Origin: Candidatus Zixiibacteriota bacterium
GTDB taxonomy: Bacteria; Blakebacterota; Blakebacteria; Blakebacterales; Blakebacteraceae
DNA: 17,503 nucleotides
Direction: 5' to 3'
NCBI GenBank assembly: GCA_030604325.1
Contig: JAUVWC010000001.1
Coordinates: 1-17,503 of the forward strand
How positions within the stretch are numbered: position 1 is the first letter of the stretch; each line of letters opens with the position of its first letter. The position numbers were made by a program, and so were the translations under genes. Positions 4,557 through 17,503 of the stretch are shown piece after piece. The notes below the pieces were generated by a model that did not search any database, was not told the DNA's origin, and worked only from the letters and a program-made list of their open reading frames with translations.

Positions 4557-7268
4557 ATGTCTGCTCTACACCGACAGCGGATCGTACCTGTGAACATCGA
4601 GGAGGAGATGAAGTCCTCCTACATCGACTACTCGATGTCGGTGATAGTCGCCCGCGCGCTGCCCGACGTTCGGGACGGCCTCAAGCCGGTCCATCGCCGC
4701 ATTCTCTATGGAATGAGGGAGTTGGGGCTGCACCCGAACCGGGCCCATCGCAAGAGTGCCCGGCTCGTAGGGGACGTGCTCGGTAAGTACCATCCCCACG
4801 GCGACTCGGCGGTCTACGACAGCCTTGTGCGGATGGCGCAAGACTTCTCGCTGCGCTACCCGCTGGTGGACGGCCAGGGCAACTTCGGCAGCGTGGACGG
4901 GGATTCCGCCGCCGCCATGCGCTACACCGAATGCCGGCTCACACCGATCGCCGGCGAGATGCTCCAGGATCTGGATAAAGATACCGTGGAGTGGATACCC
5001 AATTTCGACGAGACACTCCAGGAGCCCAATGTTCTCCCGACCAAACTGCCAAACCTGCTCGTAAATGGTACCTCAGGGATCGCCGTAGGTATGGCGACCA
5101 ATATCCCGCCGCACAACCTGACCGAGGTGGTAAACGGGCTGGTTCACCTGGTGGACCACCCGGATGCGGAGATCGATGACCTGACGGACTACATCACCGG
5201 ACCAGATTTTCCGACCGGCGGGATTATCTACGGCAGGCATGGTATAGGTGAGGCCTACCGGACGGGGCGGGGCAAAGTGATGGTTCGCGCCCGTGTCCAC
5301 ATCGAAGAGGTGAAAGACCGGGAGCGTATCGTCGTCACCGAGATCCCCTATCAGGTGAACAAGGCGAACCTGATAGAGAAGATCGCCGAACTGGTGCGGG
5401 CGAAGAGGGTGGAGGGGATTTCGGACCTCAGAGATGAATCGGATCGGGAGGGCATGCGGATCGTGCTGGAGCTGAAGCGGGACGCCCCGGCCGAGGTGAT
5501 AATCAATAAGCTGTACAAGCATACCCAGCTTCAGACCACATTCGGTATCATCAATCTGGCGCTGGTGGGGGGACAGCCGAGAGAGCTGAACCTAAAGGAG
5601 ACCCTACAGGCCTTCCTCGACTTCCGCCACTACGTGGTGGAGCGGCGCACCCGCTTCGAACTGGCCCAGGCCGAAGCGCGAGCCCATATCCTGGAAGGGC
5701 TGAAGATCTGCGTCGACAACATCGATGAGATCGTGGCCCTCATCAAGAAGGCCAAAGATCCCGCCACCGCGAAGAGGGAGCTGAAAAAGAAGTTCAAGCT
5801 TTCGAATGAACAGGCCCAAGCCATCCTCGATATGCGACTGGCCCGGCTGACGGGGCTGGAGAGGAAGAAGATCGAGGAGGAGTATCGGGAACTGATCGAG
5901 AGAATCGCCCATTATAAAGAGGTCCTGGCCAACCGGGGACTGCGGATGGCGATCGTCAAAGAGGAACTGCTGGATCTGCTGGAGAAGTACGGGGACAGCA
6001 GACGCACCGAGATCCGGGAGGATGTGGGGGAGTTCAACGTCGAAGACCTGATCGCTGAAGAAGACATGGTGATCACCATTTCCCACCAGGGGTACACAAA
6101 GCGTATCCCCGTTTCGACCTACCGGCGCCAGGGACGCGGGGGCAAGGGTGTGAGGGGGATGGGCACGAAGGAGGAGGACTTCGTCGAGCATCTCTTCGTG
6201 GCTTCAACCCACTCATATATTCTCTTCTTCACCGACCGCGGGAAGTGTTACTGGCTCAAGGTTTACGACATCCCTCAAGGAGGACGCTTAGCTAAAGGCC
6301 GACCGTTGATCAACCTGATTCAGGTGGAGAAGCAGGAAACGGTGAGAGCGATGTTGCCGGTCCGCATCTTTGAAGAGGGTAAGTGCGTAGTATTCTGTAC
6401 CACGCGCGGGTTGGTGAAAAAGACTCCACTGCCCGACTACAGTCACCCACGCCGGGACGGCATTATTGCCATCGACATAGTGAAGGGTGACGCCCTGATC
6501 GGGGCGCAGCTCACCGATGGAACCTGTGACATTATTCTGGGCACGAAGAAGGGCATGGCCATCCGCTTCCACGAGGATGATGTACGTCAGATGGGACGCG
6601 ACACGCGGGGTGTGAAAGGTATCACGCTGGCCAAGGAGGGAGATGGGGTCGTGGGGATGGTGGTAGTGCGGCGGGAAGGCTGCATTCTGACCGCAGCCGA
6701 ATACGGCTATGGGAAGCGTACCAGGATCAGCGATTACCCGCTGCAGCGCAGGGGAGGTAAGGGAGTCATAACAATGAAGAGCTGTGATCGGAACGGCGAC
6801 GTGCTGACACTGCAGGAGGTGGTTGAAAGCGACGAGTTGATGCTGATCACCAGAAATGGCCTGATAATCCGCCAGGCGGCCAAGGAGATCTCTATCATTG
6901 GGCGCAACACCCAGGGGGTGAGATTAATGAACATGGGCAAGGGGGATATGGTGGTGGACGTCGCCCGCGTGGTTGAAAAGGAGCAATCTGAGGATATCAG
7001 CGGGGTCCCCGCGCCTGCCGAATCTGACACGGCCCCGGACGCCGCTGATTCTTTTGGCGGAAAAAAGAAAAATGGCGCATCAAAAGACGCTCGAGGTGTA
7101 AAGACAGCACCTAAATCCAGGACAACGGGTAAGACTAAAGCAGCGAGTAGGTCCAAAACGGCCAGCAAGGCCAAAACGGCCAGCAAGGCCAAAACAGCCG
7201 GCAGGTCGAAGACAGCGAGCAAGACCAGTACAGCGGTGAAGCCAAACAAAGGCCGTGGGGGCCGCTGA
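4557..7268 (+). CDS. gyrA: DNA gyrase subunit A with lysine-rich C-terminal tail
   Basis: GyrA carries the DNA-cleaving tyrosine and the DNA-wrapping C-terminal domain of gyrase. The breakage-reunion domain is complete: the active-site Tyr123 lies in [11 protein letters not shown], and the quinolone-determining region reads [10 protein letters not shown] with Ser84 and Asp88, the residues typical of quinolone-sensitive enzymes. The C-terminal beta-pinwheel contains a canonical GyrA box, QRRGGKG (near nucleotide 6743), which marks true gyrase rather than topoisomerase IV. An earlier pinwheel blade carries the similar [11 protein letters not shown]. The protein is 903 residues, longer than usual because of a tail. 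After an acidic stretch (near residues 812-830), residues 836-903 are almost purely basic: 23 Lys/Arg and one Asp in 68 residues, with KTASKA repeats like histone H1 tails. It starts 6 bp after gyrB and is the last gene before a 459-bp gap, so it probably ends this transcription unit; no clear intrinsic terminator is visible. Confidence 0.98.
7155..7226 (+). repeat. 18-bp tandem repeat coding KTASKA in the GyrA tail
   Basis: Two identical 18-bp units, AAAACGGCCAGCAAGGCC, lie at 7155-7172 and 7173-7190. Two degenerate units follow at 7191-7208 and 7209-7226. All are in frame and encode Lys-Thr-Ala-Ser-Lys-Ala or close variants from residue 867. The unit differs in length and codons from the gyrB repeat, so the two tails arose by separate expansions rather than by copying one to the other. 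Confidence 0.9.
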
Positions 7269-7393
7269 CAGGGAATATTCAATATGTTACCCACTAACAT
7301 CCAGTTGTTGACACTCCTGTGGACTCATTAGATCTGTTCCGCGTAACTTGTTGTTTACCAATCAATTAGAACCTTCGATGTGCTAACGAAGAT

Positions 7394-7402
7394 TGTGGAT
7401 AA
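7394..7402 (-). promoter_or_regulatory. Perfect-consensus DnaA box (TTATCCACA on the minus strand)
   Basis: The plus strand reads TGTGGATAA, the exact complement of the E. coli consensus TTATCCACA. A weaker match, TGTGTATTA, lies at 7478-7486, one mismatch from TTWTNCACA when read on the minus strand. One perfect site is unlikely by chance in a 459-bp gap, but a full origin normally has several boxes plus an unwinding element. It may be an outlying part of the origin, a DnaA-titration site, or a site for DnaA acting as a transcription factor. Confidence 0.5.
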
Positions 7403-7449
7403 TTCCGCAGGAATGGTGGAGAAGTAGGATTTTCGACCACGTGTTGGTC

Positions 7450-7469
7450 CCAATTGGAGTGTAATTGGA
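7450..7469. repeat. Palindrome CCAATTGG with AATTGGA direct repeat at 11-bp period
   Basis: CCAATTGG at 7450-7457 is a perfect 8-bp palindrome. Its right part, AATTGGA (7452-7458), recurs at 7463-7469, an offset of 11 bp, so both copies face the same side of the helix. Just upstream lies GACCACGTGTTGGTC (7435-7449), with 5-bp arms around a 5-nt centre. This arrangement is typical of transcription-factor sites, but no regulator can be assigned. Confidence 0.35.
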
Positions 7470-7541
7470 ACAGAATATGTGTATTATTGACACGCAGTAA
7501 TTCCTCGTCGCGTTGCAGAATGACTACACTCGGAGGTGAAA

Positions 7542-7626
7542 CCGGCTACCTGCCATATCCGTAATATGCTCGTAGAGCAATGATAGCCGGGCAATGGAGG
7601 AAGTTCCATTCATTTGTTCTCCATTG
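7542..7626. repeat. Cluster of nested inverted repeats upstream of the sigma-54 promoter
   Basis: CCGGCTA (7542-7548) is complementary to TAGCCGG (7584-7590). Inside lie CATAT/ATATG (7554-7558 and 7564-7568) and TGCTC/GAGCA (7567-7571 and 7575-7579, 3-nt loop). Directly after comes CAATGGAG (7592-7599) paired with CTCCATTG (7619-7626), which competes with AATGGA/TCCATT (7593-7598 and 7605-7610). If transcription starts near 7651, these are DNA-level sites at about -109 to -25, and the first group falls where enhancer-binding proteins of sigma-54 usually bind. If transcription starts further upstream, they could fold as RNA. Confidence 0.4.
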
Positions 7627-7640
7627 GCACGAAGTGTGCT
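7624..7640 (+). promoter_or_regulatory. Sigma-54 (RpoN) -24/-12 promoter
   Basis: The sequence TTGGCACGAAGTGTGCT matches the sigma-54 consensus YTGGCACG-N4-TTGCW at 12 of 13 fixed positions; the only mismatch is G for the first T of the -12 box. The invariant GG (7626-7627) and GC (7638-7639) are exactly 10 bp apart. The predicted start is near 7651, giving a 77-nt leader before the ATG at 7728. The downstream gene group encodes an NtrX-like sigma-54 activator with GAFTGA, which supports the call. That this activator acts here is inference. Confidence 0.75.
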
Positions 7641-7654
7641 GACTGTTATGGATG

Positions 7655-7680
7655 CCCGGCATGCGGTTGTGCGCACCGGG
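7655..7680 (+). other. Hairpin at the predicted 5' end of the envelope-operon mRNA
   Basis: CCCGG (7655-7659) pairs with CCGGG (7676-7680), and TGCG (7662-7665) pairs with CGCA (7672-7675), leaving a 2-nt bulge and a 6-nt loop GTTGTG. G7654-T7681 could add a wobble pair. With transcription starting near 7651 this hairpin would cap the 5' end of the transcript, which could protect the mRNA from decay. There is no T-tract, so it is not an intrinsic terminator. Confidence 0.4.
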
Positions 7681-7683
7681 TCG

Positions 7684-7701
7684 ATGAGGCGCATGAGGCG
7701 C
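7684..7701 (+). repeat. 9-bp tandem duplication ATGAGGCGC in the leader
   Basis: ATGAGGCGC occurs twice without a gap at 7684-7692 and 7693-7701, between the leader hairpin and the ribosome-binding site. Its role is unknown; the GAGG cores could act as weak secondary ribosome contacts, or it may be a chance slippage product. Confidence 0.5.
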
Positions 7702-7714
7702 CAACGATGCGGGC

Positions 7715-7720
7715 AAGGAG
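7715..7720 (+). promoter_or_regulatory. Ribosome-binding site AAGGAG for the outer-membrane protein
   Basis: AAGGAG lies 7 nt before the ATG at 7728. It decides the start of the outer-membrane protein, because this ATG opens directly into a signal peptide while the in-frame upstream starts (TTG 7614, ATG 7707) lack comparable sites. Confidence 0.8.
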
Positions 7721-7727
7721 TCATTCA

Positions 7728-9476
7728 ATGATAAGCACACGCTGGGCGGTTTCCATCCTGCTTGTGATGCTGACCGCTACAAGTGCACCGGCCATGGTGA
7801 CCATTTCAGCTGGTGATATCACCCTGTGGGGGGGAGATGGGGCAGCGGTGATGCAAGAGAGTCCCCGCCGGATAAAGGGTGATTTTCGTATCGAGAGAGG
7901 CGAGGTGCTTCGATGCGACCTTATCGTCGAGGGGGGGATACTGACTGTAGATGGGGAGCTCCACGGGTGGGCGGTTGTGGCCTACGGTGATGTGTTTGTC
8001 CGCGGTACGGTTCAGGGGATGGTGGTGGCCCTCTACGGTGATGTGATGGTTCTGGACAGCGGACTGGTCCGGGGCGATGCGGTCAGCATCGAGGGGGATG
8101 TGATCGTACAAGGTTCCGGTGCCATAACCGGCAGTGATGTGTCAACGACCCGACGGGGCCTGGAAAGGCAGGGCAGAGATGTGGCCTGGGCGCGCCTGGT
8201 GCGGCAGTCCGGAGTGCTGGGCAAGGGAGATGAGCGGGAATACGAGCAGCGGCAGCGGGAGTGGGACTTCGAATGGGACGAGAGGCGGGACTACCGGCGA
8301 TGGCCCGCCTATATATTCGCCTACACAGGCAGCTTCCCTCTTGGTGGGTTTGTCTATAATCGGATTGACGGGCTGACGCTGCAGGGGGAGATCTTCAACT
8401 CCCAGCATGATTGGGAAGATGCGGCGACCAGCTTCTATGGCGGCGCTGGATACGGATTCTGGAGCAAGGAGCTCTACTACCGGTTGGGATTGAATCGTTA
8501 CTTCTTCCCCGGCACCCCGATAGAGATCGGAATCGGGATGTACCGGCAGTTGGAAACCGAGGATACCTGGTACATCACTCCCAATGAGAACAACCTGAAT
8601 GCACTGCTGGCCCGTTACGACTGGTACGACTACTACCGGGTGGAAGGTCTGCAGGCTCACCTGGGGTTCGCGCCCCAACGTTGGCTGAAGCTCGGTGTGC
8701 GCTATGCTCAGGAGAGAGAGATAGCGGCGGAAAAAAAGTGTAACTGGGCTATTTTCGGCGGCGACCGTCTCTTTCGTAATAATGAGTGGTATGTTACCTA
8801 CGACCCCGATCCCGCGCTTCGGGCTACTCTGCCGGCGGATGAGGGGGAGGTCCACCGCCTTATTTACTCCCTGCGACTCGATCTGACCTCGGTATGGCGA
8901 AAACGGCCCTCGCGGGGAGTGGTTGTGGACGCAACGTTAGAACAGGTGGAGCACCAGGGCATCGACTTCGGGGCATATCGGGGCGACCCGTTCAACTACG
9001 AGCGGCTGCTGGTCAGGCTGGCGGCGTACCAACGGCTCAGTCGGATCGACCACCTCGCCCTGCGTGTGATGGTCGGCTCGGCGCACGTAGACGCCCCTGA
9101 TACCATACCCGTGCAACACCGCTACTACCTGGGGGGCGTTGGCAGCCTGCGGGGCTATGATTTCAAGAGGTTCAGCGGGAACCGTCTCTTCCTCGGAACC
9201 CTGGAATACACCCTCGGTGCAGACGGATGGTCACCACTCTTCGACGGTTGGGCGCTGACTTTTTTCTACGACCACGGACTGGCCTGGGATGCCCAGCCCG
9301 AGGCAGTTATTGAAGAGGAGCTGACGCCGAAACAGGCAGATGTAATGCGTAGCGTTGGTGCGGCCATCGCTCCATTCGGCTGGGGCGGCTTAAGGCTCGA
9401 GGTGGCCTACCCGCTGGATCCAAAAGAAGAAGAAAGAAAGTTCACCTATTACATTCGGTGGTCGTTTGATTTTTAA
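7728..9476 (+). CDS. Outer-membrane protein: bactofilin-like beta-helix plus Omp85/BamA-type barrel
   Basis: This 582-residue protein is predicted to sit in the outer membrane. Residues 1-22 form a signal peptide (basic start, ILLVML core, cleavage after SAPA). Residues about 55-138 are a ladder of short GD-rich turns such as YGDVFVRGTV, YGDVMVLDSG and EGDVIVQGSG, resembling the polymer-forming beta-helix of bactofilins. A charged, Arg/Glu-rich linker follows (about 140-185). The rest is rich in alternating aromatic and polar strands; GGVGSLRGYDF around Ser473-Tyr477 matches the LRGY/VRGF motif of the Omp85 barrel lock region. The last residue is Phe, the usual BamA-recognition signal. Classical POTRA domains are not apparent, so it is unlikely to be BamA itself; a specialised transporter, insertase or scaffold is possible. 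It heads the operon behind a sigma-54 promoter and is followed 24 bp later by a toastrack protein. The barrel call is firm, the beta-helix call moderate, the function unknown. Confidence 0.8.
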   Translation: MISTRWAVSILLVMLTATSAPAMVTISAGDITLWGGDGAAVMQESPRRIKGDFRIERGEVLRCDLIVEGGILTVDGELHGWAVVAYGDVFVRGTVQGMVVALYGDVMVLDSGLVRGDAVSIEGDVIVQGSGAITGSDVSTTRRGLERQGRDVAWARLVRQSGVLGKGDEREYEQRQREWDFEWDERRDYRRWPAYIFAYTGSFPLGGFVYNRIDGLTLQGEIFNSQHDWEDAATSFYGGAGYGFWSKELYYRLGLNRYFFPGTPIEIGIGMYRQLETEDTWYITPNENNLNALLARYDWYDYYRVEGLQAHLGFAPQRWLKLGVRYAQEREIAAEKKCNWAIFGGDRLFRNNEWYVTYDPDPALRATLPADEGEVHRLIYSLRLDLTSVWRKRPSRGVVVDATLEQVEHQGIDFGAYRGDPFNYERLLVRLAAYQRLSRIDHLALRVMVGSAHVDAPDTIPVQHRYYLGGVGSLRGYDFKRFSGNRLFLGTLEYTLGADGWSPLFDGWALTFFYDHGLAWDAQPEAVIEEELTPKQADVMRSVGAAIAPFGWGGLRLEVAYPLDPKEEERKFTYYIRWSFDF

Positions 9477-9500
9477 GGGACAGGATAATGGAGTGGTTCG

Positions 9501-10370
9501 ATGAGTAAAAGTGAACGACAGGCACTGAAAGCCATTGTGGTTACCGTGCTGTTGCTGGCGGCGACTACCCTGCTGTCCGCGCAGAGCCAGCCTCAGATGA
9601 TTACCAAGTCCTTCACTCCCGATACCGGGCGCCCGCTGAGCGTGAAGATCCGGGGTGATGGAGCGGAGATCATGATCAAAGGTGTAGCTCGAGACGGCGA
9701 GGGGCGGGCACGATACCGCTTCGATGAAGAACACTTCACGGCCTCCCTCGAGTGGGAGCCGGAGAAGAACACCTTTCGGGCCATACTCGACATGGACCTC
9801 CACAGTTTTGATACCGACGACGAGGAGCACGAGTCGGAACTGAAGGTGCTCCTGCCGCGCCGCCCGGAGGTGGATCTGGATTGTTCGCTCAAGGCGGGCG
9901 TTGTGGATCTAGACGGTGGTGGGCTGACATTCAACGAGCTGGAGCTGGCTTTGTGGGCGGGTGAGCTGAAAGCCACATTTCCGACTCCATCGAACAAGGT
10001 AATCGGAAGGGTGGAGGTGGACGTCAAACTGGGGGAGATGCATTTGAATGAGCTGGGTAACCTGGCCTGCGAGGAACTGGATGTGAACGGGTTCGCAGGG
10101 GAAATGACGCTGGATTTCAGCGGTTCAGTGTCGATGAGGCGGGAGGCGAGGATAGATCTGGAGATCGGCCAGATCACCATTTATGTCCCGAAGGGTATGG
10201 CTGTCCAGGCCAGAATCAGCAAGCTGGGTTTCCTCGCAGAGGTTGACATTCCCGGTGGGTGGAGGAAGGAGGGGAGGTACGTATACTCGCCCGGTACCAG
10301 CAGGGGTGAGGCCGAACTGAGGCTGGACATACGGGGTGGAATCGGCGCAATAACGATCGTCGAGCGATAG
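9501..10370 (+). CDS. Secreted toastrack-like protein (DUF4097/LiaF C-terminal type)
   Basis: This 289-residue protein starts at an ATG preceded by GGAG with 7-nt spacing. Residues 1-27 are a signal peptide: basic head, VVTVLLLAATTLL core, likely cleavage after LSA. No later membrane segment is visible, so it should be periplasmic or surface-attached. The mature part is a regular series of beta-strands of the form LDLGxGxLxL and VDVKLGEMHLNEL, ELDVNGFAGEMTLDFSG and IDLEIGQITIYVPKGM, the right-handed toastrack pattern of DUF4097/DUF2154 proteins and of the LiaF C-terminal domain. The VPKGM and ISKLGF segments resemble LiaF-C endings, where conserved Pro-Gly turns close the rack. In LiaF this fold works in envelope-stress sensing with a two-component system; here a kinase/regulator pair is encoded two genes later. 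A link is plausible but inferred. Assignment rests on pattern rather than a diagnostic motif. Confidence 0.65.
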   Translation: MSKSERQALKAIVVTVLLLAATTLLSAQSQPQMITKSFTPDTGRPLSVKIRGDGAEIMIKGVARDGEGRARYRFDEEHFTASLEWEPEKNTFRAILDMDLHSFDTDDEEHESELKVLLPRRPEVDLDCSLKAGVVDLDGGGLTFNELELALWAGELKATFPTPSNKVIGRVEVDVKLGEMHLNELGNLACEELDVNGFAGEMTLDFSGSVSMRREARIDLEIGQITIYVPKGMAVQARISKLGFLAEVDIPGGWRKEGRYVYSPGTSRGEAELRLDIRGGIGAITIVER

Positions 10371-10402
10371 CGCACGCTGCCTCGGCATATGTGGGGAGTC
10401 GA

Positions 10403-11074
10403 GTGTTCCAAAAACTGGGCACACTATTAATCGTAATAACTATCGTACCGGCCGCGGCCAGTGGACAGGAGCCGGAGCCGGCGGTAGTCATCGAGGATGT
10501 GTGGCGTCATGAGGGGGAGCTTCGCTTCTCCGTTGAAGCTACCGGTCTGTTCGATGAGGAAGCACAGCGGACTATCAGACAGGGCGGCACCGCTGCTCTC
10601 GAATATACGATCGAACTCTACCGTCGTCGGGCAGGTTGGTTCGACACAATTGTCAACACCCCCCTCATTGTTCCCTTCAGGGTTAGCTACGATGCCTTCG
10701 AGCGAAAATACCGGCTCCTCGGGGCCGACATCCGCCTGAAAACAGATAACTTCGACGATATTGTGGCCCAGTGCACCAAGCTGGATTCGGTTTCCATGGG
10801 TTCGATAGAGGAAATGAAGATGGATATGAATGCCACCTATTACCTGGTGGCCCGCGTGAGTTATCAGCCCTTGACGGTAGATACAATTGATGAATTGCGC
10901 GACTGGGTGAGCAAGCCTGGCAGTCGCTCATCCGATCGGGAGAGCGCCGAAAGTAGATCCTCGGGGGTGGGATCAAGGCTCGCCCGTGCGCTGATGAGTG
11001 CAGCGGGCTACGGGGAGGAGGAACTCCGGGGGGAGAGCCGCCGCTTTAAACCCTCCGACCTTCCAGAACGCTAA
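10403..11074 (+). CDS. DUF4390 family secreted protein
   Basis: The 223-residue product begins with a signal peptide (MFQKLGTLLIVITIVPAAASG). The GTG at 10403 is chosen because GGGGAG (10393-10398) lies just upstream, with short 4-nt spacing; an in-frame GTG at 10391 would add four residues but has no ribosome site. The mature region has the DUF4390 layout: a beta segment with LRFSVEATGLFDEEAQRTIRQGG, then LEYTIELYRRRAGWFD, then FRVSYDAFERKYRL, and a later YYLVARVSYQPL. In this family the strand pattern and the YD...Y element are the conserved parts. DUF4390 genes are often found directly upstream of ntrY-ntrX, and here the kinase starts 3 bp after its stop, which strengthens the call. A role in presenting envelope signals to the kinase is an inference; no biochemical function is established to my knowledge. 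The C-terminal 45 residues are Ser/Arg/Glu-rich and probably disordered. Confidence 0.8.
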   Translation: MFQKLGTLLIVITIVPAAASGQEPEPAVVIEDVWRHEGELRFSVEATGLFDEEAQRTIRQGGTAALEYTIELYRRRAGWFDTIVNTPLIVPFRVSYDAFERKYRLLGADIRLKTDNFDDIVAQCTKLDSVSMGSIEEMKMDMNATYYLVARVSYQPLTVDTIDELRDWVSKPGSRSSDRESAESRSSGVGSRLARALMSAAGYGEEELRGESRRFKPSDLPER

Positions 11075-11077
11075 CCA

Positions 11078-12760
11078 GTGCCTGACCCGTCGCTGCCAGC
11101 CGTTTATGTCTTCTTTGCCTGGGTCGTTTTCCTGACTTTCATCGTCATCGCTATTGTTGTCTACCGGTGGCGGAATCCGCAGCGGTACAGCAGGTTCCAA
11201 CTCAAGCTCACCCTTGCCCTCATTCTCTTCCTGCTCGTTCCTACCGCACCGCTCATCTTTGTAGCGGGCACAGCAGTCGATCAGGTCCGGGCATTCTTTG
11301 TTGCCCTTCCGGTTGACGAGGCGCTGGAGAGCGGTCTCGATGTGGTGCGGCTGGCGCTCGCCAGTGAGGAGGCCCGGCTTCAGGCGTGGGCACAAGAGGT
11401 AACGGAGGAGGCACCGGTCACCGGTGGCCGGCTCGCCCGACCCGATTTCACGATGCGCTTCGCGCGTGGTGAGGAGGGCGGGTGGGAGATGGGTGAGTTT
11501 GAACCCGGGCCGTCGGTCAGAGGGCCGCGTGCGGATTCTCTCAGGGCCGATCCTCCCGACCCACGTGTCGAGAGGGTGTATGTTCTCGAGGATGTAGAAT
11601 TTACCTGGGATGAACGCACGTTTTTCAACTACCGCGACCGTGGCGTCTATATGGCTCTGGTCAAGATCCCCGGCAGTGAAGCTATCGCGGCAGCAGGGGT
11701 CTGGATAGATTCCCAGATCGTGGAGGCCCGGTACACCCTGGGTGATGGACTGAACAGTTTTCGCAGGATCACCATGCTGGGAGGCAGGCGCACGCAGGAA
11801 GTGTTATGGATCGTGGCCAGCCTCTGGATGGTTGTTCTGACCATGGTTGCCTTCTTTGCGGCGCGTGTATTGGCAAGGGGGGTAAGCGAACCGGTAGTGG
11901 GGCTGGCGAAGGGAATGGCGGCGGTCGCCAACGGGGATCTGAGTGCCCGTGTGGACATCGGTGCCCGTGATGAGATGCGGGTCCTTGTCGATTCGTTCAA
12001 CACCATGACCGACCAACTCAAGGAGGCGCGCGAGCGCATTGTTACGGTGGAGAAGCAGGCTGCCTGGAGAGACGTGGCGCGGGGGATTGCGCACGAGATA
12101 AAAAATCCGCTTACCCCGATTCAGATAGGTCTTCACCGTGTGCGCACCCGCCTCGAATCTAATGGGACCTTGCAGACCGATCCTGCGCTGCGGGACTCCC
12201 TTCAGACGATGAGCGAAGAGGTGGAGGCACTGCGGCGGATGGCCGCCTCCTTCAGTGAGTTTGCCCAGCTTCCTCAGCCTAAAATGAAAGAGGCGGACCT
12301 GGAAGCAGTCGTCCGGGGTGCGGTGGCACTCTTTCGGGAGGGGGTACAGAAGACCAGGATTGTCGTTAGAGTGAAGGGGCAGGTTCCACCTCTCTTTATG
12401 GACGCCGATCTGGTCAAGCGTGCCCTGATCAATCTTGTGAAGAATGCGGTGGAGTCGGTTGAGGCGGCGGGGAGCGGGGGAGTTGAGGTTGTGCTCGAGC
12501 GGCATGGCAGGGAACTGGACCTGGAGGTCCGGGACGGCGGACTGGGATTTGAGCAGGGTAATGCCGCAAGGCTGTTCAACCCCGACTACTCCACTAAATC
12601 GAGGGGGACCGGTCTCGGGCTGTCGATGGTGGCCAGGATAGTGGCGGACCACTCGTGGGAAATAGAGGCCGAAAGTGAGGGGCCCGGCAAGGGAGCCGTA
12701 TTGCGCATACGCATTCTCCTCGATGAGGAGAACCGATCCATTGGCCTGGAGGGCATGTAA
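11078..12760 (+). CDS. NtrY-like membrane sensor histidine kinase
   Basis: This 560-residue kinase probably phosphorylates the NtrX-like regulator encoded next. It starts at a GTG 3 bp after the DUF4390 stop. Two membrane helices lie at about residues 5-27 and 39-60, then an extracytoplasmic region of about 180 residues, then a third helix at about 242-264. A HAMP domain follows (about 262-320, with PVVGLAKGMAAVANGDL). The phospho-acceptor is His339 in VARGIAHEIKNPLTPIQ, the NtrY-type H-box. The N-box is INLVKNAVESVE, G1 is VRDGGLGF and G2 is STKSRGTGLGLSMV, so the ATPase domain looks complete. Unlike well-known NtrY proteins, there is hardly any sequence between HAMP and the H-box, so the usual PAS domain is missing and sensing probably depends on the extracytoplasmic part. 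Its stop TAA overlaps the start of the regulator by one base. Pairing with that regulator is very likely; the signal is unknown, and nitrogen control should not be assumed. Confidence 0.92.
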   Translation: MPDPSLPAVYVFFAWVVFLTFIVIAIVVYRWRNPQRYSRFQLKLTLALILFLLVPTAPLIFVAGTAVDQVRAFFVALPVDEALESGLDVVRLALASEEARLQAWAQEVTEEAPVTGGRLARPDFTMRFARGEEGGWEMGEFEPGPSVRGPRADSLRADPPDPRVERVYVLEDVEFTWDERTFFNYRDRGVYMALVKIPGSEAIAAAGVWIDSQIVEARYTLGDGLNSFRRITMLGGRRTQEVLWIVASLWMVVLTMVAFFAARVLARGVSEPVVGLAKGMAAVANGDLSARVDIGARDEMRVLVDSFNTMTDQLKEARERIVTVEKQAAWRDVARGIAHEIKNPLTPIQIGLHRVRTRLESNGTLQTDPALRDSLQTMSEEVEALRRMAASFSEFAQLPQPKMKEADLEAVVRGAVALFREGVQKTRIVVRVKGQVPPLFMDADLVKRALINLVKNAVESVEAAGSGGVEVVLERHGRELDLEVRDGGLGFEQGNAARLFNPDYSTKSRGTGLGLSMVARIVADHSWEIEAESEGPGKGAVLRIRILLDEENRSIGLEGM

Positions 12761-14115
12761 TGAACGGCCGGGTGTTGATCATTGATGACGAAGATGGCGT
12801 CCGCCGGAGCCTGCGGGGACTTCTGGAGGATGAGGGTTACCGCGTCGAAGAGGCACCTTCGGGTGAAGAAGGGCTTCAGATTGCCGATGAGGTATCCCCC
12901 GATCTGATCATGCTCGACGTTGTGCTGGGTGGCATTGATGGGTTGGAAGTGCTGGCTCGGCTGGTCGAGCAGGGATATCGGTATCCGGTCATCATGATGT
13001 CGGGGCATGCAACTCTTGAGAACGCGGTCAAGGCGACACGCCTGGGTGCCACGAACTTTCTGGAGAAACCGCTGGCGGCGGAAAAGGTGCTGGCCGAGGT
13101 GTCTACGGCCGTGGAGCTGGCCCGGTTGCGCCGCGAGAACGAAAGCCTGAGGGCTGAAATCGACCATAGCCACACGATGATAGGAGAGTCCGCTGCCATG
13201 CAGCGGCTGCGGGAGCGGATCCGCAAGGTGGCTCCGACACGGGCGACGGTTCTCATCCTGGGGGAGAGCGGCACCGGAAAGGAACTTGTCGCGCGTGCGG
13301 TGCATGCGCACAGCGAGCGTGCAGATCAACCTTTCGTCCAGGTGAACTGTGCGGCCATCCCCCGGGACCTGATCGAATCTGAGCTCTTCGGGCATGAGAA
13401 GGGGGCGTTTACCGGCGCTATCTCCATGCACCGCGGCCGTTTCGAACAGGCGGATGGTGGGAGCATCTTCCTCGATGAGGTGGCGGATACGAGCCTCGAG
13501 GTTCAGGCCCGGTTGCTGCGTGTGCTCCAGGAGGGAGAAGTCCAGCGCGTGGGAAGTGAGAAAGTATTCCATGTAGACGTCCGGGTCATCGCCGCCTCCA
13601 ACCAGAACCTGGGGGAGCTGATAGAAGAGGGGCGGTTCCGCGAAGACCTGTATTATCGGCTGAATGTGCTTCCCCTCCAGGTACCACCCCTGCGTGATCG
13701 CCGGGAGGACATTGCCGCCCTCGCCAGGGAATTCGTCTCACACTTCGCCCGTGTCAACAACCGTCACCCGATCGATCTGACCGACGGCGGTATTGAGGCG
13801 TTGCTGGATAGCCAGTGGCCGGGTAATGTGCGTGAACTCCGCAACGCCGTGGAGCGACTCATGATCCTTCATGAGGGCAACACGGTTGGGGCACCTGAGG
13901 TCGAGGAGATACTCCCGGGATCGGGCGGACAGGCCACCCCGCCCATGGAGGAGCCTGAGGGAGAGAGCTTGCGCGACAGAGTGGAAGCCTTCGAGGCTCA
14001 ACTACTGGCACGGGAGCTGGAGAAAACTGGTGGAGTGGTCTCACATGTTGCCGAGCGCCTCAACACGGACCGGGCTAATCTGTATAGGAAGTTGAAGCGG
14101 TACGGATTGAAATGA
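12760..14115 (+). CDS. NtrX-like sigma-54-dependent response regulator
   Basis: This 451-residue protein has the three-part NtrC-family structure. The receiver domain (about 1-120) has the acidic pocket DDED at 9-12, phospho-acceptor Asp53 in LIMLDVVLGG, a Ser in the MMSGHA segment and Lys in FLEKPL. The AAA+ domain has Walker A GESGTGKE (from Gly168), the sigma-54 contact loop GAFTGA (215-220, intact) and Walker B GGSIFLDEV, plus a conserved arginine-rich region ending WPGNVRELRN. The C-terminus is a Fis-type helix-turn-helix (about 424-451). All elements for ATP-driven opening of sigma-54 promoters are present. It overlaps the kinase stop by one base and the mfd start by four. A good sigma-54 promoter lies at the head of the same gene group (7624-7640), so autoregulation is an attractive hypothesis. 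The name NtrX-like reflects similarity and gene order rather than a proven nitrogen role. Confidence 0.94.
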   Translation: MNGRVLIIDDEDGVRRSLRGLLEDEGYRVEEAPSGEEGLQIADEVSPDLIMLDVVLGGIDGLEVLARLVEQGYRYPVIMMSGHATLENAVKATRLGATNFLEKPLAAEKVLAEVSTAVELARLRRENESLRAEIDHSHTMIGESAAMQRLRERIRKVAPTRATVLILGESGTGKELVARAVHAHSERADQPFVQVNCAAIPRDLIESELFGHEKGAFTGAISMHRGRFEQADGGSIFLDEVADTSLEVQARLLRVLQEGEVQRVGSEKVFHVDVRVIAASNQNLGELIEEGRFREDLYYRLNVLPLQVPPLRDRREDIAALAREFVSHFARVNNRHPIDLTDGGIEALLDSQWPGNVRELRNAVERLMILHEGNTVGAPEVEEILPGSGGQATPPMEEPEGESLRDRVEAFEAQLLARELEKTGGVVSHVAERLNTDRANLYRKLKRYGLK

Positions 14116-17100
14116 CCTCCATAGAACGCGCTCCCTGCGCGCCCCTGCTCGAGGAGTGGCGGGAAGCGGTCGCCGGAACTTCCATCTTCCAGACCGTATC
14201 GGATCGCATACGCCGGGGCGAAAACATCGAACTTCCCACGCTTCCCGGGTCCCTGCCAATCGTGCTGCTGGCTGTGGTAGTGAGGGAACTACCGGGGATG
14301 GGGCTGCTGGCAGTGCTGCCCGAGCCCGAAGAAGCCGAGGCGGCCGCCCTCGATTTTGCTGCCCTGTTGGGGGAGGGGACGGTACGGTTGTTGCCGCCTT
14401 GGCCTTTTGCTGCTTATGAAGAGCTGAGTCCTTCACCATTACTCTCTTTCGAACGCTGCGACGCACTCGTCCACCTGTGTCGGCTTGCTGCTGGCACGGG
14501 GAATATCGCCGGTGATGCGCGGGATGAGATTGGGGGGGTGGTAGTGACATCGGCCCCCGCGCTGACGCAGTGGTCAGCCGACAGGCGGGAGCTGCTGGCG
14601 AGCGAGCTCGAGCTTGTCAGAGGTGGGGAGCGGAGCTTCGAGGAACTGGTCGAGAGACTGATCGAGCTGGGTTATGAGCGAACCGGGATGGTAGAGGGGC
14701 CGGCGGAGTTCGCCGTTCGTGGTGGATTAATTGATATCTCACCGCCCAGCCGCGGCCAAGGCATCCGGGTCGAGTTCTGGGGTGATCGGATCGAGTCGCT
14801 GCGGGAGTTCAAGCTGAGAGATCAGAGAGCGGTCGGAGTGCTCGGGGGGGTGAGTGTGCCTGCGGTGCGGGAAGTGCCGATGCATGAGGAAGCGATGGTG
14901 CGCGCGCTGGAGCGGGCCGGCACCGACCTGGCCGGTGGGATACTGCCCGACACCCCTCTGGAGAGAGCGCTGGAAAGGGAGCAGTTCTGGGAGGGCCTGC
15001 AGTGGTACCTTCCCCTGTTTGTAAGGACTCCCTCTACGGTGGCCGACCTGCTCCCTGATGGGTCTATAGTGGTCATGTGGGAACCGGAACGGGTAGAGGA
15101 GACTCTGCTGGAGCTGCACCGGCAGGCCGCCGAAGACTATGCAGGCCTCGAGCAGCCCGGCGGCTGGCTTCCTCCCGAAAGGATCCTTACTCCGGCCGAC
15201 ATCCTGGATCGCCTTCGAGATTCCTTTCCTGGTGTGAACCTGCCTCTGGTGGCCGCACCCGGAGCCGAAGCGGTGCGCACCGATGCGGGCCGGGCCCCGG
15301 CGGTCTCGGGTGAATTCAACAGGCTCCGGGAAGAAATTGAACGCCTGCACCGGAAGGGGCTGACACCGACGATCCTGGTGGAGGAGGAGGGACAGCGCCG
15401 GCGGCTTGCGGATCTGCTGGGGGAAGAGGTTGAAGAGGGTCCCCGGCTATTGCTGGGGCAGCTGAGCGAGGGATTCGTATGGCCGGAGGCGAGGCTTGCG
15501 GTCTGGCCCGACCACGAGATCTTCAGGAGACCCCGACGGAGCCGTCGCCCGCGCACTGTCGGCGGCCGCTTCATCCGATCGTACCGCTCTCTGAATGTTG
15601 GTGATCTTGTCGTCCATGTCGATCACGGGATCGGTCGCTATGAAGGACTTCGGGGTCTTGAGGTGGACGGAGTTCATACCGAACTGCTGGAGCTGGTCTA
15701 TGCAGGGGGAGACAGGTTATTGGTTCCCATCGACCAGATGGCCCGGGTACAGCGATATATCGGGGCCAAGGCTGATGCAACACCTCCGCTGAACACCCTG
15801 GGTGGTAAGGTCTGGGAGCGGGCCGTGGAGAGGGCCCGGACAGACCTGTTTGAAATGGCCGAGGAGCTCGCCAGGTTGTACGCCGCCCGTAAGACGTTGA
15901 GGGGGACCGCCTACCCTCCGGACGATCTCCTGATGGAGGAGCTGGAAGCCTCTTTTCCCTATGGGGAAACGCAGGACCAGGTGCGTGCTGTGGAAGAGGT
16001 GAAGAGGGATCTGGAATCGTCGAAGAACATGGACCGCCTTATATGCGGGGATGTGGGCTACGGTAAAACCGAAGTGGCCATCCGGGCCGGGCTGAAAGTG
16101 ATCGAAGGGGGAGGACAGGTAGCCGTGCTCGTACCTACCACGGTTCTCGCCCAGCAGCACCTGGAGACCTTTCGCCAGCGGCTGGACGGGTTCCCGGTGC
16201 GCATTGAGATGCTGAGCCGCTTCCGGACCCGCTCCCAGCAGCGTCGGACGCTGGAGGACCTGGCCTCGGGGCAGGTGGACCTGGTGATCGGTACGCACCG
16301 GTTGCTTAGCAGGGATGTTTCCTTCTCCCGACTGGGCCTCGTGGTGGTGGACGAGGAACATCGCTTCGGCGTCAGGGCCAAGGAAAAGTTGAAATCGATT
16401 CGCACACAAGTGGACGTGCTCAGCCTCACAGCGACCCCCATCCCGAGAACACTACACATGTCGCTGCTCGGCATACGGGACATATCGATCATCACCACGC
16501 CGCCGGAGGACCGCCTGCCCATCCATACCGAGGTGGTTAGATTCGACGAGGGGCGTATTGAAGGGGCGATCAGGCGGGAGATGGACCGGGGCGGCCAGAT
16601 CTTTTTCGTGCACAACCGGGTGCAGTCGATTGATGCCGCCGTGGGCCTCGTCGGGCGGCTGGTTCCCGAGGCCCGCATCGGGCTCGCTCACGGCCAGATG
16701 AACGAGCGGAAGCTGGAGAGGGCGATGCTCGAGTTCGCTTCGGGTGGAACGGACGTACTCGTTTCGACGATGATTGTAGAATCGGGGCTCGATCTGCCCA
16801 ACGCGAATACGCTGCTGGTCAACCGTGCGGACCGTTTGGGTCTGGCCCAACTCTACCAGCTCAGGGGGCGGGTGGGGCGCTCGAGCCAGAAGGCCTACGC
16901 CTATTTCCTTGTGCCGCCCGGACATCGTCTAAATAGGGACGCAAGGCGGCGGCTGCAGGCGGTGCAGGAACACTCCGAATTGGGGGCCGGGCTAAACCTT
17001 GCCATGCGCGACCTGGAAATCAGGGGGGCCGGGAACCTGCTCGGTGCCCAACAGCACGGGTATATAGCAGCCGTGGGCTACGATCTCTTCCAGGAGATGC

Positions 17101-17503
17101 TCGAAGAAGCTGTTGCTGAAATACATGGCACGCCGGCAGCGATCTGGTCACCGCCCCGCCTGGAACTGCCGGGTGAGGCATTTCTGCCGGAGGCATATGT
17201 CTCGGCGGCGGGCCTGAGACTGGAATTCTACCGACGCGCGGTGGAAGCCCGTTCGATCGAAGAAGTCGGAGGCCTGTATGCAGAGCTGCGGGACAGGTTC
17301 GGGCCGCTACCTCCCGAAGCGGGTGCCCTGCTCGACGCTTCTATCATGCGGATTATGGGTGCGGAACTTGGTCTCGACTCGCTGGTTGTACAGAAGAATA
17401 TGTTGATAGGGAGGCTTCCTGCCGATCGCATACTCGATCGGCCTTCCTGGGAAGCATTTCTAGAGCGGCTGGGCTCGGCGGCACAGTTTACCGGCCACGC
17501 GCC
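14112..17503 (+). CDS. mfd: Transcription-repair coupling factor Mfd, 3'-truncated by window edge
   Basis: Mfd removes RNA polymerase stalled at DNA damage and recruits UvrA for nucleotide excision repair. The frame is open from the ATG at 14112 (overlapping the upstream stop as ATGA) to the window end, 1130 codons; Mfd is usually about 1150 residues, so only the extreme C-terminus is missing. The N-terminal UvrB-like region contains EFAVRGGLIDIS and RVEFWGDRIESLREF (from about residue 194). The polymerase-binding CarD-like domain starts at about residue 497 with GDLVVHVDHGIGRYEGL. The helicase core is complete: Walker A GDVGYGKT (646-653), DEEHRF (from Asp747), SLTATPIPRTLHMSLLGIRD, and IVESGLDLPNANTLLVNRAD followed by LAQLYQLRGRVGRS. 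RIRGAGNLLG-type sequence (EIRGAGNLLGAQQHG) follows, then the start of the TRCF C-terminal domain. All catalytic motifs are present. Its tight coupling to a two-component system is unusual in my knowledge of mfd neighbourhoods. Confidence 0.97.
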   Translation, partial: MTSIERAPCAPLLEEWREAVAGTSIFQTVSDRIRRGENIELPTLPGSLPIVLLAVVVRELPGMGLLAVLPEPEEAEAAALDFAALLGEGTVRLLPPWPFAAYEELSPSPLLSFERCDALVHLCRLAAGTGNIAGDARDEIGGVVVTSAPALTQWSADRRELLASELELVRGGERSFEELVERLIELGYERTGMVEGPAEFAVRGGLIDISPPSRGQGIRVEFWGDRIESLREFKLRDQRAVGVLGGVSVPAVREVPMHEEAMVRALERAGTDLAGGILPDTPLERALEREQFWEGLQWYLPLFVRTPSTVADLLPDGSIVVMWEPERVEETLLELHRQAAEDYAGLEQPGGWLPPERILTPADILDRLRDSFPGVNLPLVAAPGAEAVRTDAGRAPAVSGEFNRLREEIERLHRKGLTPTILVEEEGQRRRLADLLGEEVEEGPRLLLGQLSEGFVWPEARLAVWPDHEIFRRPRRSRRPRTVGGRFIRSYRSLNVGDLVVHVDHGIGRYEGLRGLEVDGVHTELLELVYAGGDRLLVPIDQMARVQRYIGAKADATPPLNTLGGKVWERAVERARTDLFEMAEELARLYAARKTLRGTAYPPDDLLMEELEASFPYGETQDQVRAVEEVKRDLESSKNMDRLICGDVGYGKTEVAIRAGLKVIEGGGQVAVLVPTTVLAQQHLETFRQRLDGFPVRIEMLSRFRTRSQQRRTLEDLASGQVDLVIGTHRLLSRDVSFSRLGLVVVDEEHRFGVRAKEKLKSIRTQVDVLSLTATPIPRTLHMSLLGIRDISIITTPPEDRLPIHTEVVRFDEGRIEGAIRREMDRGGQIFFVHNRVQSIDAAVGLVGRLVPEARIGLAHGQMNERKLERAMLEFASGGTDVLVSTMIVESGLDLPNANTLLVNRADRLGLAQLYQLRGRVGRSSQKAYAYFLVPPGHRLNRDARRRLQAVQEHSELGAGLNLAMRDLEIRGAGNLLGAQQHGYIAAVGYDLFQEMLEEAVAEIHGTPAAIWSPPRLELPGEAFLPEAYVSAAGLRLEFYRRAVEARSIEEVGGLYAELRDRFGPLPPEAGALLDASIMRIMGAELGLDSLVVQKNMLIGRLPADRILDRPSWEAFLERLGSAAQFTGHA

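Follow-up and report, generated by a model that had tools for sequence, protein, structure and literature searches.

A conserved sigma-54 promoter and upstream dyads suggest that an outer-membrane barrel operon is controlled by the NtrX-like regulator that it encodes

Does an operon that carries both an outer-membrane barrel protein and a two-component regulator answer to that regulator? The question is raised by the window considered here (by which we mean the whole stretch of 17,503 nucleotides that was analysed), in which a first-pass annotation had pointed to a near-perfect sigma-54 promoter ahead of an operon encoding its own sigma-54 activator. From this arrangement it had read a closed circuit, running from an envelope signal through an NtrY-like kinase and an NtrX-like regulator to the envelope genes and to the kinase and regulator themselves. 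As we will argue below from comparison of sequences, the two-component regulator encoded along with the barrel protein very probably activates this operon, its own gene included, via the sigma-54 promoter.

The window contains, in order, dnaN, recF, a small gene, gyrB/gyrA (recF, the small gene and gyrB/gyrA being identified by reading the proteins), a 459-bp spacer, and then six genes on the same strand (+). The six are tightly packed, with gaps of at most 24 bases, an overlap of 1 base between the kinase and activator genes, and an overlap of 4 bp between the activator gene and mfd. The first gene (7728–9476) codes for an outer-membrane protein, as had been claimed: it belongs to the Omp85 superfamily of barrel proteins (PF01103, 45.8 bits, cut-off 24), and its structure model (mean pLDDT 80) consists of an N-terminal beta-solenoid at approximately 47–140 and a barrel. 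The modelled beta-solenoid occupies the place expected for POTRA domains. Next come a protein with a LiaF-like_C domain (9501–10370; PF09922, 32 bits, cut-off 29), which falls below the NCBIfam LiaF cut-off, and a DUF4390 protein of the PlrP family (10391–11074; PF14334, 36.4 bits, cut-off 27). The fourth gene (11078–12760) encodes the sensor histidine kinase, for which the label NtrY-like stands in respect of HAMP, HisKA (with HEIKN) and HATPase and fails in respect of PAS: no Pfam match to a PAS domain was found in the kinase, leaving the NtrY set of HAMP, PAS, HisKA and HATPase incomplete. The kinase model includes an alpha/beta region at approximately 124–210 to which no name could be assigned, and a fold search with the whole model gave kinases among the 50 matches listed.

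The regulator, a sigma-54 activator with a Fis-type helix-turn-helix, is encoded by the fifth gene from the promoter (12760–14115), and its GAFTGA motif is intact, as annotated. Its domain content (PF00072, PF00158 and PF02954, all over cut-off) agrees with the reading as an NtrX-like response regulator; the NtrX family itself (NF051870) gives the best score of the table, 435.4 of the 600 bits required, followed by NtrC with 431.4 of 558.6. "NtrX-like" is the best label for the activator, though the protein lies under the NCBI NtrX cut-off. Its nearest named relative comes from a Candidatus Latescibacterota bacterium (84% identity), and the barrel, LiaF-like and DUF4390 proteins had no match on the pieces of named genomes that carry activator relatives (L033–L037). 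The sixth gene, mfd (14112–17503; TIGR00580, 970 bits, cut-off 800), runs off the window. Its 4-bp overlap with the activator gene is present in all four genomes of the phylum compared below, and a terminator scan returned 3 sites against 6.5 in shuffles; transcription reading through into mfd would be consistent with both.

The putative promoter, TTGGCACGAAGTGTGCT (7624–7640, + strand), agrees with the −24/−12 consensus at 12 of 13 positions in a pattern scan of the window, with one mismatch and with exact GG-N10-GC spacing, so the description of it as near-perfect holds. The consensus scored was YTGGCACGN4TTGCW. Between this element and the ATG at 7728 lie 87 bases, including the ribosome-binding site of the first gene (AAGGAG, 7715–7720, + strand), which is found before the ATG in all four orthologues; a transcript would be expected to start near 7651. 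By itself, the match to TTGGCACGAAGTGTGCT says little, because the consensus shows no excess across the genome: allowing up to 2 mismatches, we counted 89 matches, and 90 for the reversed pattern used as a control. The genome-wide scan was dropped as a proof of the promoter on this ground. Within the window, a scan allowing up to 3 mismatches gave 4 matches (12.6 in shuffles), and the score of the promoter region was not reached in any of 1894 equally long random windows taken elsewhere in it. One-mismatch matches in the window's genome number seven including TTGGCACGAAGTGTGCT; three (L002, L004 and L007) fall inside long, gene-like open reading frames, and three (L003, L006 and L008) are not clearly within such frames.

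What lifts the promoter above chance is its conservation in four genomes, namely that of the window (G000, a 63% complete assembly in which the window is contig C138), one of the same genus (G001) and two of the same family (G002 and G003), all of them incomplete assemblies. The first-pass annotation had proposed looking for rpoN in this genome and for the GG and GC elements in close relatives, and both were found: rpoN is present in G000 (PF04552, E 1.2e-60), as it is in 23 of 23 further genomes, and the −24/−12 element is kept ahead of the orthologous operon in 4/4 genomes of the phylum, as TTGGCACGGAGTGTGCT in G001, TTGGCATGAAAGGTGCT in G002 and TTGGCATGAATGGTGCT in G003, the form common to all four being TTGGCAYG-N4-GTGCT. 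In spacers that are 49–67% identical between pairs of genomes, 13 of the 17 promoter columns are invariant, compared with 128 of 501 over the whole spacer alignment (binomial P 1.6e-5, the place having been fixed beforehand); from the −12 element down to the ribosome-binding site, conservation in the four-genome alignment is poor. In G002 and G003, a rex-like gene stands between gyrA and the spacer, and the conserved block has nevertheless kept its place by the barrel gene. This rex-like gene (L079 4997–5680, L080 13092–13775; named by reading the protein) is absent from the window and from G001. The contigs of G002 and G003 break within the kinase gene, and for that reason the unity of the operon in these two genomes is presumed.

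Exact matches to TTGGCAYGN5TGCW in the four genomes number 9 (control, 5), of which 4 are this promoter. In G002, one such site precedes a pilC-like gene adjoining an activator and another lies near an activator. Sites of the TTGGCACG type are found before a pilin-like gene in G003 (L108 1501–1517) and, with 17 identical bases, before a carbohydrate-binding-like gene in both G002 and G003 (L105 61–77, L106 1501–1517); the one-mismatch site on L003 of G000 precedes a gene similar to those at the extra TTGGCAYGN5TGCW sites. The pilin-, pilC- and carbohydrate-binding-like names come from reading of the proteins only.

The −24/−12 match might instead have arisen by chance or reflect some structural property, within a spacer that is kept for an unrelated function such as binding of DnaA close to the replication genes. 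The near-equality of genome-wide consensus matches and control would fit such an account, as would a perfect DnaA box (TTATCCACA, 7394–7402, − strand) kept in the same spacer in 4/4 genomes. However, the conservation is concentrated on the −24/−12 letters, and like sites precede barrel operons in families where the pieces examined show no gyrA match alongside; we consider a chance origin extremely improbable. The DnaA box and a further conserved stretch of this spacer, TTGTTGACAC...TGTGGA (7304–7322), may possibly reflect DnaA control or origin function. Two observations speak against an origin in the spacer: the dnaA–dnaN spacer of G003 is richer in AT (0.60 versus 0.50), and no skew turn occurs within the window.

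If the site is indeed a sigma-54 promoter, where would its activator bind? Two conserved elements stand upstream on the + strand: dyad A, GTGTA-N5-GACAC (GTGTANTNTTGACAC, 7479–7493), with 13 of 15 columns invariant in the four genomes, and element B (CGTTGCAGAATGACTACA, 7511–7528), whose pattern is unique to the locus in 4/4. Allowing at most one mismatch, the dyad A pattern has 4 matches in the four genomes, all at this locus, and none in the control; the element B pattern, TGTTKCANNNTGACNACA, likewise has 4 matches, all at this locus, with 4 in the control. Element B starts 32 bp after the start of dyad A in every one of the four genomes, and dyad A starts at −146, −115, −145 and −144 relative to the promoter TGG, the odd distance (−115) differing by about three helical turns. 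Geometry of this kind between dyad and promoter is usual for NtrC-type enhancers. Dyads A and B look like an enhancer of the activator, with binding predicted at A as the main site and at B as a second, weaker one.

The right-hand part of dyad A is open to another reading, in which TTGACA at 7487 is the −35 element of a sigma-70 type promoter that dominates the spacer and leaves the sigma-54 site a minor role. TTGACAC is invariant in 4/4 genomes, and TATGTT can be read by eye 16 bases further on in G002 and G003, but the −10 is not kept (CATGTT in G001, CGCGTT in the window), a scan of 7200–17503 found no sigma-70-like site on the + strand, and TTGACAC can be accounted for as one side of a dyad common to another family. 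The sigma-70 reading of TTGACA at 7487 was rejected on the lack of a kept −10, and we think it very unlikely that a sigma-70 promoter is dominant here.

The enhancer interpretation can be followed into other lineages. DUF4390 (PF14334) was matched in 52 of 386 genomes, including 4/4 of the window's family over cut-off, and the DNA around the best match was examined in 48 genomes outside that family (a second match occurred in 6 of the 48; 4 of these lay elsewhere in the genome and were left out). By tblastn, 33 of the 48 loci have DUF4390 followed by a kinase, without a barrel match, and 25 of these show an activator-type match after the kinase, in 2 cases over the receiver part only. In ten loci (L171, L176, L177, L182, L183, L184, L190, L191, L194 and L197), activator, barrel and DUF4390 follow one another, with a kinase match before the activator in all except L183; the overall order elsewhere is kinase, activator, barrel, DUF4390, the same gene set with the GAFTGA of the activator intact. 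The barrel, DUF4390 and kinase genes lie in a row in L195 and L198 (family f176); neither locus shows an activator further downstream, and the 400 bp leading up to the barrel match contain no GG-N10-GC site. L174, L179 and L193 have none of these gene arrangements. When two families were widened, barrel matches were obtained in 5 of 6 genomes of f135 and 7 of 7 of f99; close homologues of the f99 proteins come from Gemmatimonadetes and more distant ones from Candidatus Eisenbacteria.

We scored 21 regions ahead of a barrel gene (4 from the window's family, 5 from f135, 7 from f99 and 5 from other lineages) by the best GG-N10-GC site in each. Starts in f99 were placed by homology (that of L176 from a 481-residue homologue, P0146), and L197 was left out of scoring because it has no spacer; G063, too, is without one. 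The best site reached at least 10 of 12 in 17 of the 21 regions, counts in which members of a family are not independent and base composition differs between sets. These comprise 16 of 16 regions from the three families (4/4, 5/5 and 7/7, respectively) and one of the five others (G209, 10; G174 and G196, 9; G327, 8; G334, 5). Equally long random windows from elsewhere in the respective piece (848 to 1905 per region) never reached the score of any of the 16; the proportion that did so was 4.7% for G209. In the 500 bp ahead of DUF4390 at the 33 barrel-less loci, the highest score was 9, never 10.

Dyads recur as well. The f135 spacers, aligned separately, contain TGTGTC and, approximately 21 bp on, GTGTC-N5-GACA(C/T) in 5/5; the GTGTC-N5-GACAC dyad, at −117 to −120, has the same 15-bp length and nearly the same arms as dyad A, the activators of the two lineages being about 50% identical. 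The best dyads of f99 are degenerate (8–9 of 10, at −66 to −98), and those of other lineages score 9 (G209), 8 (G174) and 6 (G196) of 10, with 6.4% (G239), 7% (G174) and 98.6% (G196) of shuffles matching the dyad score. When 23 genomes were searched for a dyad together with a promoter, 12 matches were obtained against 1 in the control. Four of them are at the operon studied here, one each in G000 to G003; five precede the barrel operon, each in a different f135 genome; one is in G389, and two more are in G388 and G390. This strict pattern has no match in the 13 other genomes and does not fit f99. In G389 (f135), where no barrel was matched, dyad and promoter come after the activator, and the examined locus ends 270 bp later. 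In G388 and G390, which represent two f135 genera, a dyad and sigma-54 site precede exported-protein and lipoprotein-like genes (L216 149–316, L223 1501–1668), a second candidate target. A looser scan of the 48 pieces found 10 matches on the DUF4390 strand (6 ahead of barrel genes and 4 elsewhere, 2 of the latter in barrel-less loci), none on the other strand and none in reversed sequence. A dyad with a −24/−12 site (11/12) also occurs at 10169–10184 of L177, reversed to the DUF4390 strand, before a small open reading frame near the G209 barrel locus.

Are the activators of these operons of one kind? All 20 activators of the barrel group (4 from the window's family and 16 others, including G389) have GAFTGA or GSFTGA, as do 11 of 23 at barrel-less DUF4390–kinase loci (within L151–L192). 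The remaining 12 of these 23 lack G[AS]FTGA, which makes it improbable that they act via sigma-54. A tree of 65 activators places the 23 from barrel-less loci on one side of a branch (98/97) and does not separate those of the barrel group from paralogues, 2 changes being needed; a single clade for the barrel group was neither supported nor rejected (AU p of 0.424). Since G000 has 9 matches to the activator at E ≤ 1e-20, the link between this activator and this promoter rests on proximity and conservation. Those 9 matches also speak for an alternative in which the sigma-54 promoter is real and is driven by another activator, the local kinase and activator being merely co-transcribed or acting elsewhere. 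Against it, the activator gene of f135 and f99 adjoins both the barrel gene and its promoter, the promoters of these families have dyads of like form upstream, and the recognition helices in the window's family, f135 and f99 have DR(A/T/P)NL(H/Y)R in common; we judge control by another activator unlikely.

We thus return to control by the operon's own regulator, a reading supported by conserved dyads specific to the locus and by similar dyads and promoters before related barrel operons; autoregulation itself we infer. It is likely, in our estimation, that TTGGCACGAAGTGTGCT is a working sigma-54 promoter of the six-gene operon as part of the circuit as a whole, that is, a sigma-54 promoter driven by kinase and activator via the dyads, with looping, autoregulation and read-through. 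In the circuit that we infer, which takes in binding, phosphorylation, looping, autoregulation, read-through into mfd and an envelope signal, the active NtrY-like kinase would phosphorylate the NtrX-like activator, which would bind the dyads at 7479–7493 and 7511–7528 and open the promoter for sigma-54 RNA polymerase by DNA looping. The transcript from approximately 7651 would run through the barrel, LiaF-like, DUF4390, kinase and activator genes and mfd, yielding the barrel and its periplasmic partners and, because both genes lie in the driven operon, more kinase and activator, which would amount to positive autoregulation. By analogy with PlrP of Bordetella, the DUF4390 protein probably tunes the kinase from the periplasm, and hence the condition of the outer membrane may be signalled by barrel and DUF4390; the presence of a barrel partner among the products of the target operon points to the outer membrane as the source of the signal.

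With kinase and activator inside the driven operon, the predicted loop would be closed in the window's family. The promoter of f135 and f99 follows the activator gene and precedes barrel and DUF4390, so that kinase and activator are outside the driven operon. Because of this, the closed loop is not general; on the gene orders seen, it is a property of the window's family, and the promoter position in f135 and f99 points to a shared core leading from the regulator to barrel and DUF4390. A bolder proposal, which we put forward tentatively as possible rather than probable, is that several little-studied lineages share a four-part signalling system from outer membrane to sigma-54, in which barrel and DUF4390 report to the NtrY-like kinase and are themselves the main products of a sigma-54 promoter driven by its NtrX-like partner via GTGTM-N5-GACAC. 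If true, this system would serve as sigma-E, Cpx or Rcs do in enterobacteria, and its loop would have closed in the window's lineage as kinase and activator came under the same promoter. In any case, an NtrX-like regulator gains a specific candidate promoter, together with a candidate binding site and target operon, all of them seen in three families known mostly from metagenomes; DUF4390 (PlrP), studied in Proteobacteria, is tied to an outer-membrane barrel; and the combined dyad and promoter site can find targets without expression data, such as the second f135 operon.

We found no report of the circuit in the literature searched (most subscription papers were outside its scope) and no paper there on Latescibacter with sigma-54; a study of sigma-54 across 16 phyla (PMC12316311) names neither Latescibacter nor Eisenbacter in its main text. 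Among known proteins, the BamA and TamA barrels are the best structure matches of the barrel model. The window's protein differs from them in its modelled beta-solenoid N-terminus, in having no Pfam match to POTRA families, and in scores far under the NCBIfam cut-offs (36.9 of 297 bits for BamA and 27.5 of 625 for TamA).

At the level of the circuit, the Psp response offers one parallel: there, envelope genes are driven by a sigma-54 activator, PspF, coded beside them, and the operon studied here likewise joins envelope genes to an adjoining sigma-54 activator gene. PspF, however, is not known to have a receiver domain or partner kinase, and no Psp protein is among the Pfam matches of the window's operon. 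The PlrP–PlrS–PlrR system shares a DUF4390 gene directly before the kinase and regulator genes, and HEIKN in the kinase. According to PMC13001219, genetic evidence suggests that the Bordetella PlrP inhibits the phosphatase activity of PlrS, and NtrX-type regulators of betaproteobacteria are without an AAA+ domain. By comparison with what is described there, AAA+ and GAFTGA are intact here, rsmB is absent, the operon has barrel and LiaF-like genes as well as a sigma-54 promoter, and the kinase is without a PAS match.

Closest in outline is NtrYX of alphaproteobacteria. In PMC7240162, NtrX of Rhodobacter sphaeroides is described as binding ahead of envelope genes and ahead of the operon that encodes it, with GCA-N9-TGC as its proposed site, and self-regulation and envelope targets therefore have precedent; as far as we have searched, the novelty lies in the sigma-54 promoter, in the dyad site and in the barrel gene set. 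Both systems pair a kinase with an NtrC-family regulator and have a proposed 15-bp dyad site, whereas the half-site here is GTGT...ACAC in place of that of R. sphaeroides, and the regulator of the window, while missing the NtrX cut-off, comes with a conserved −24/−12 promoter, a barrel gene and DUF4390 in addition.
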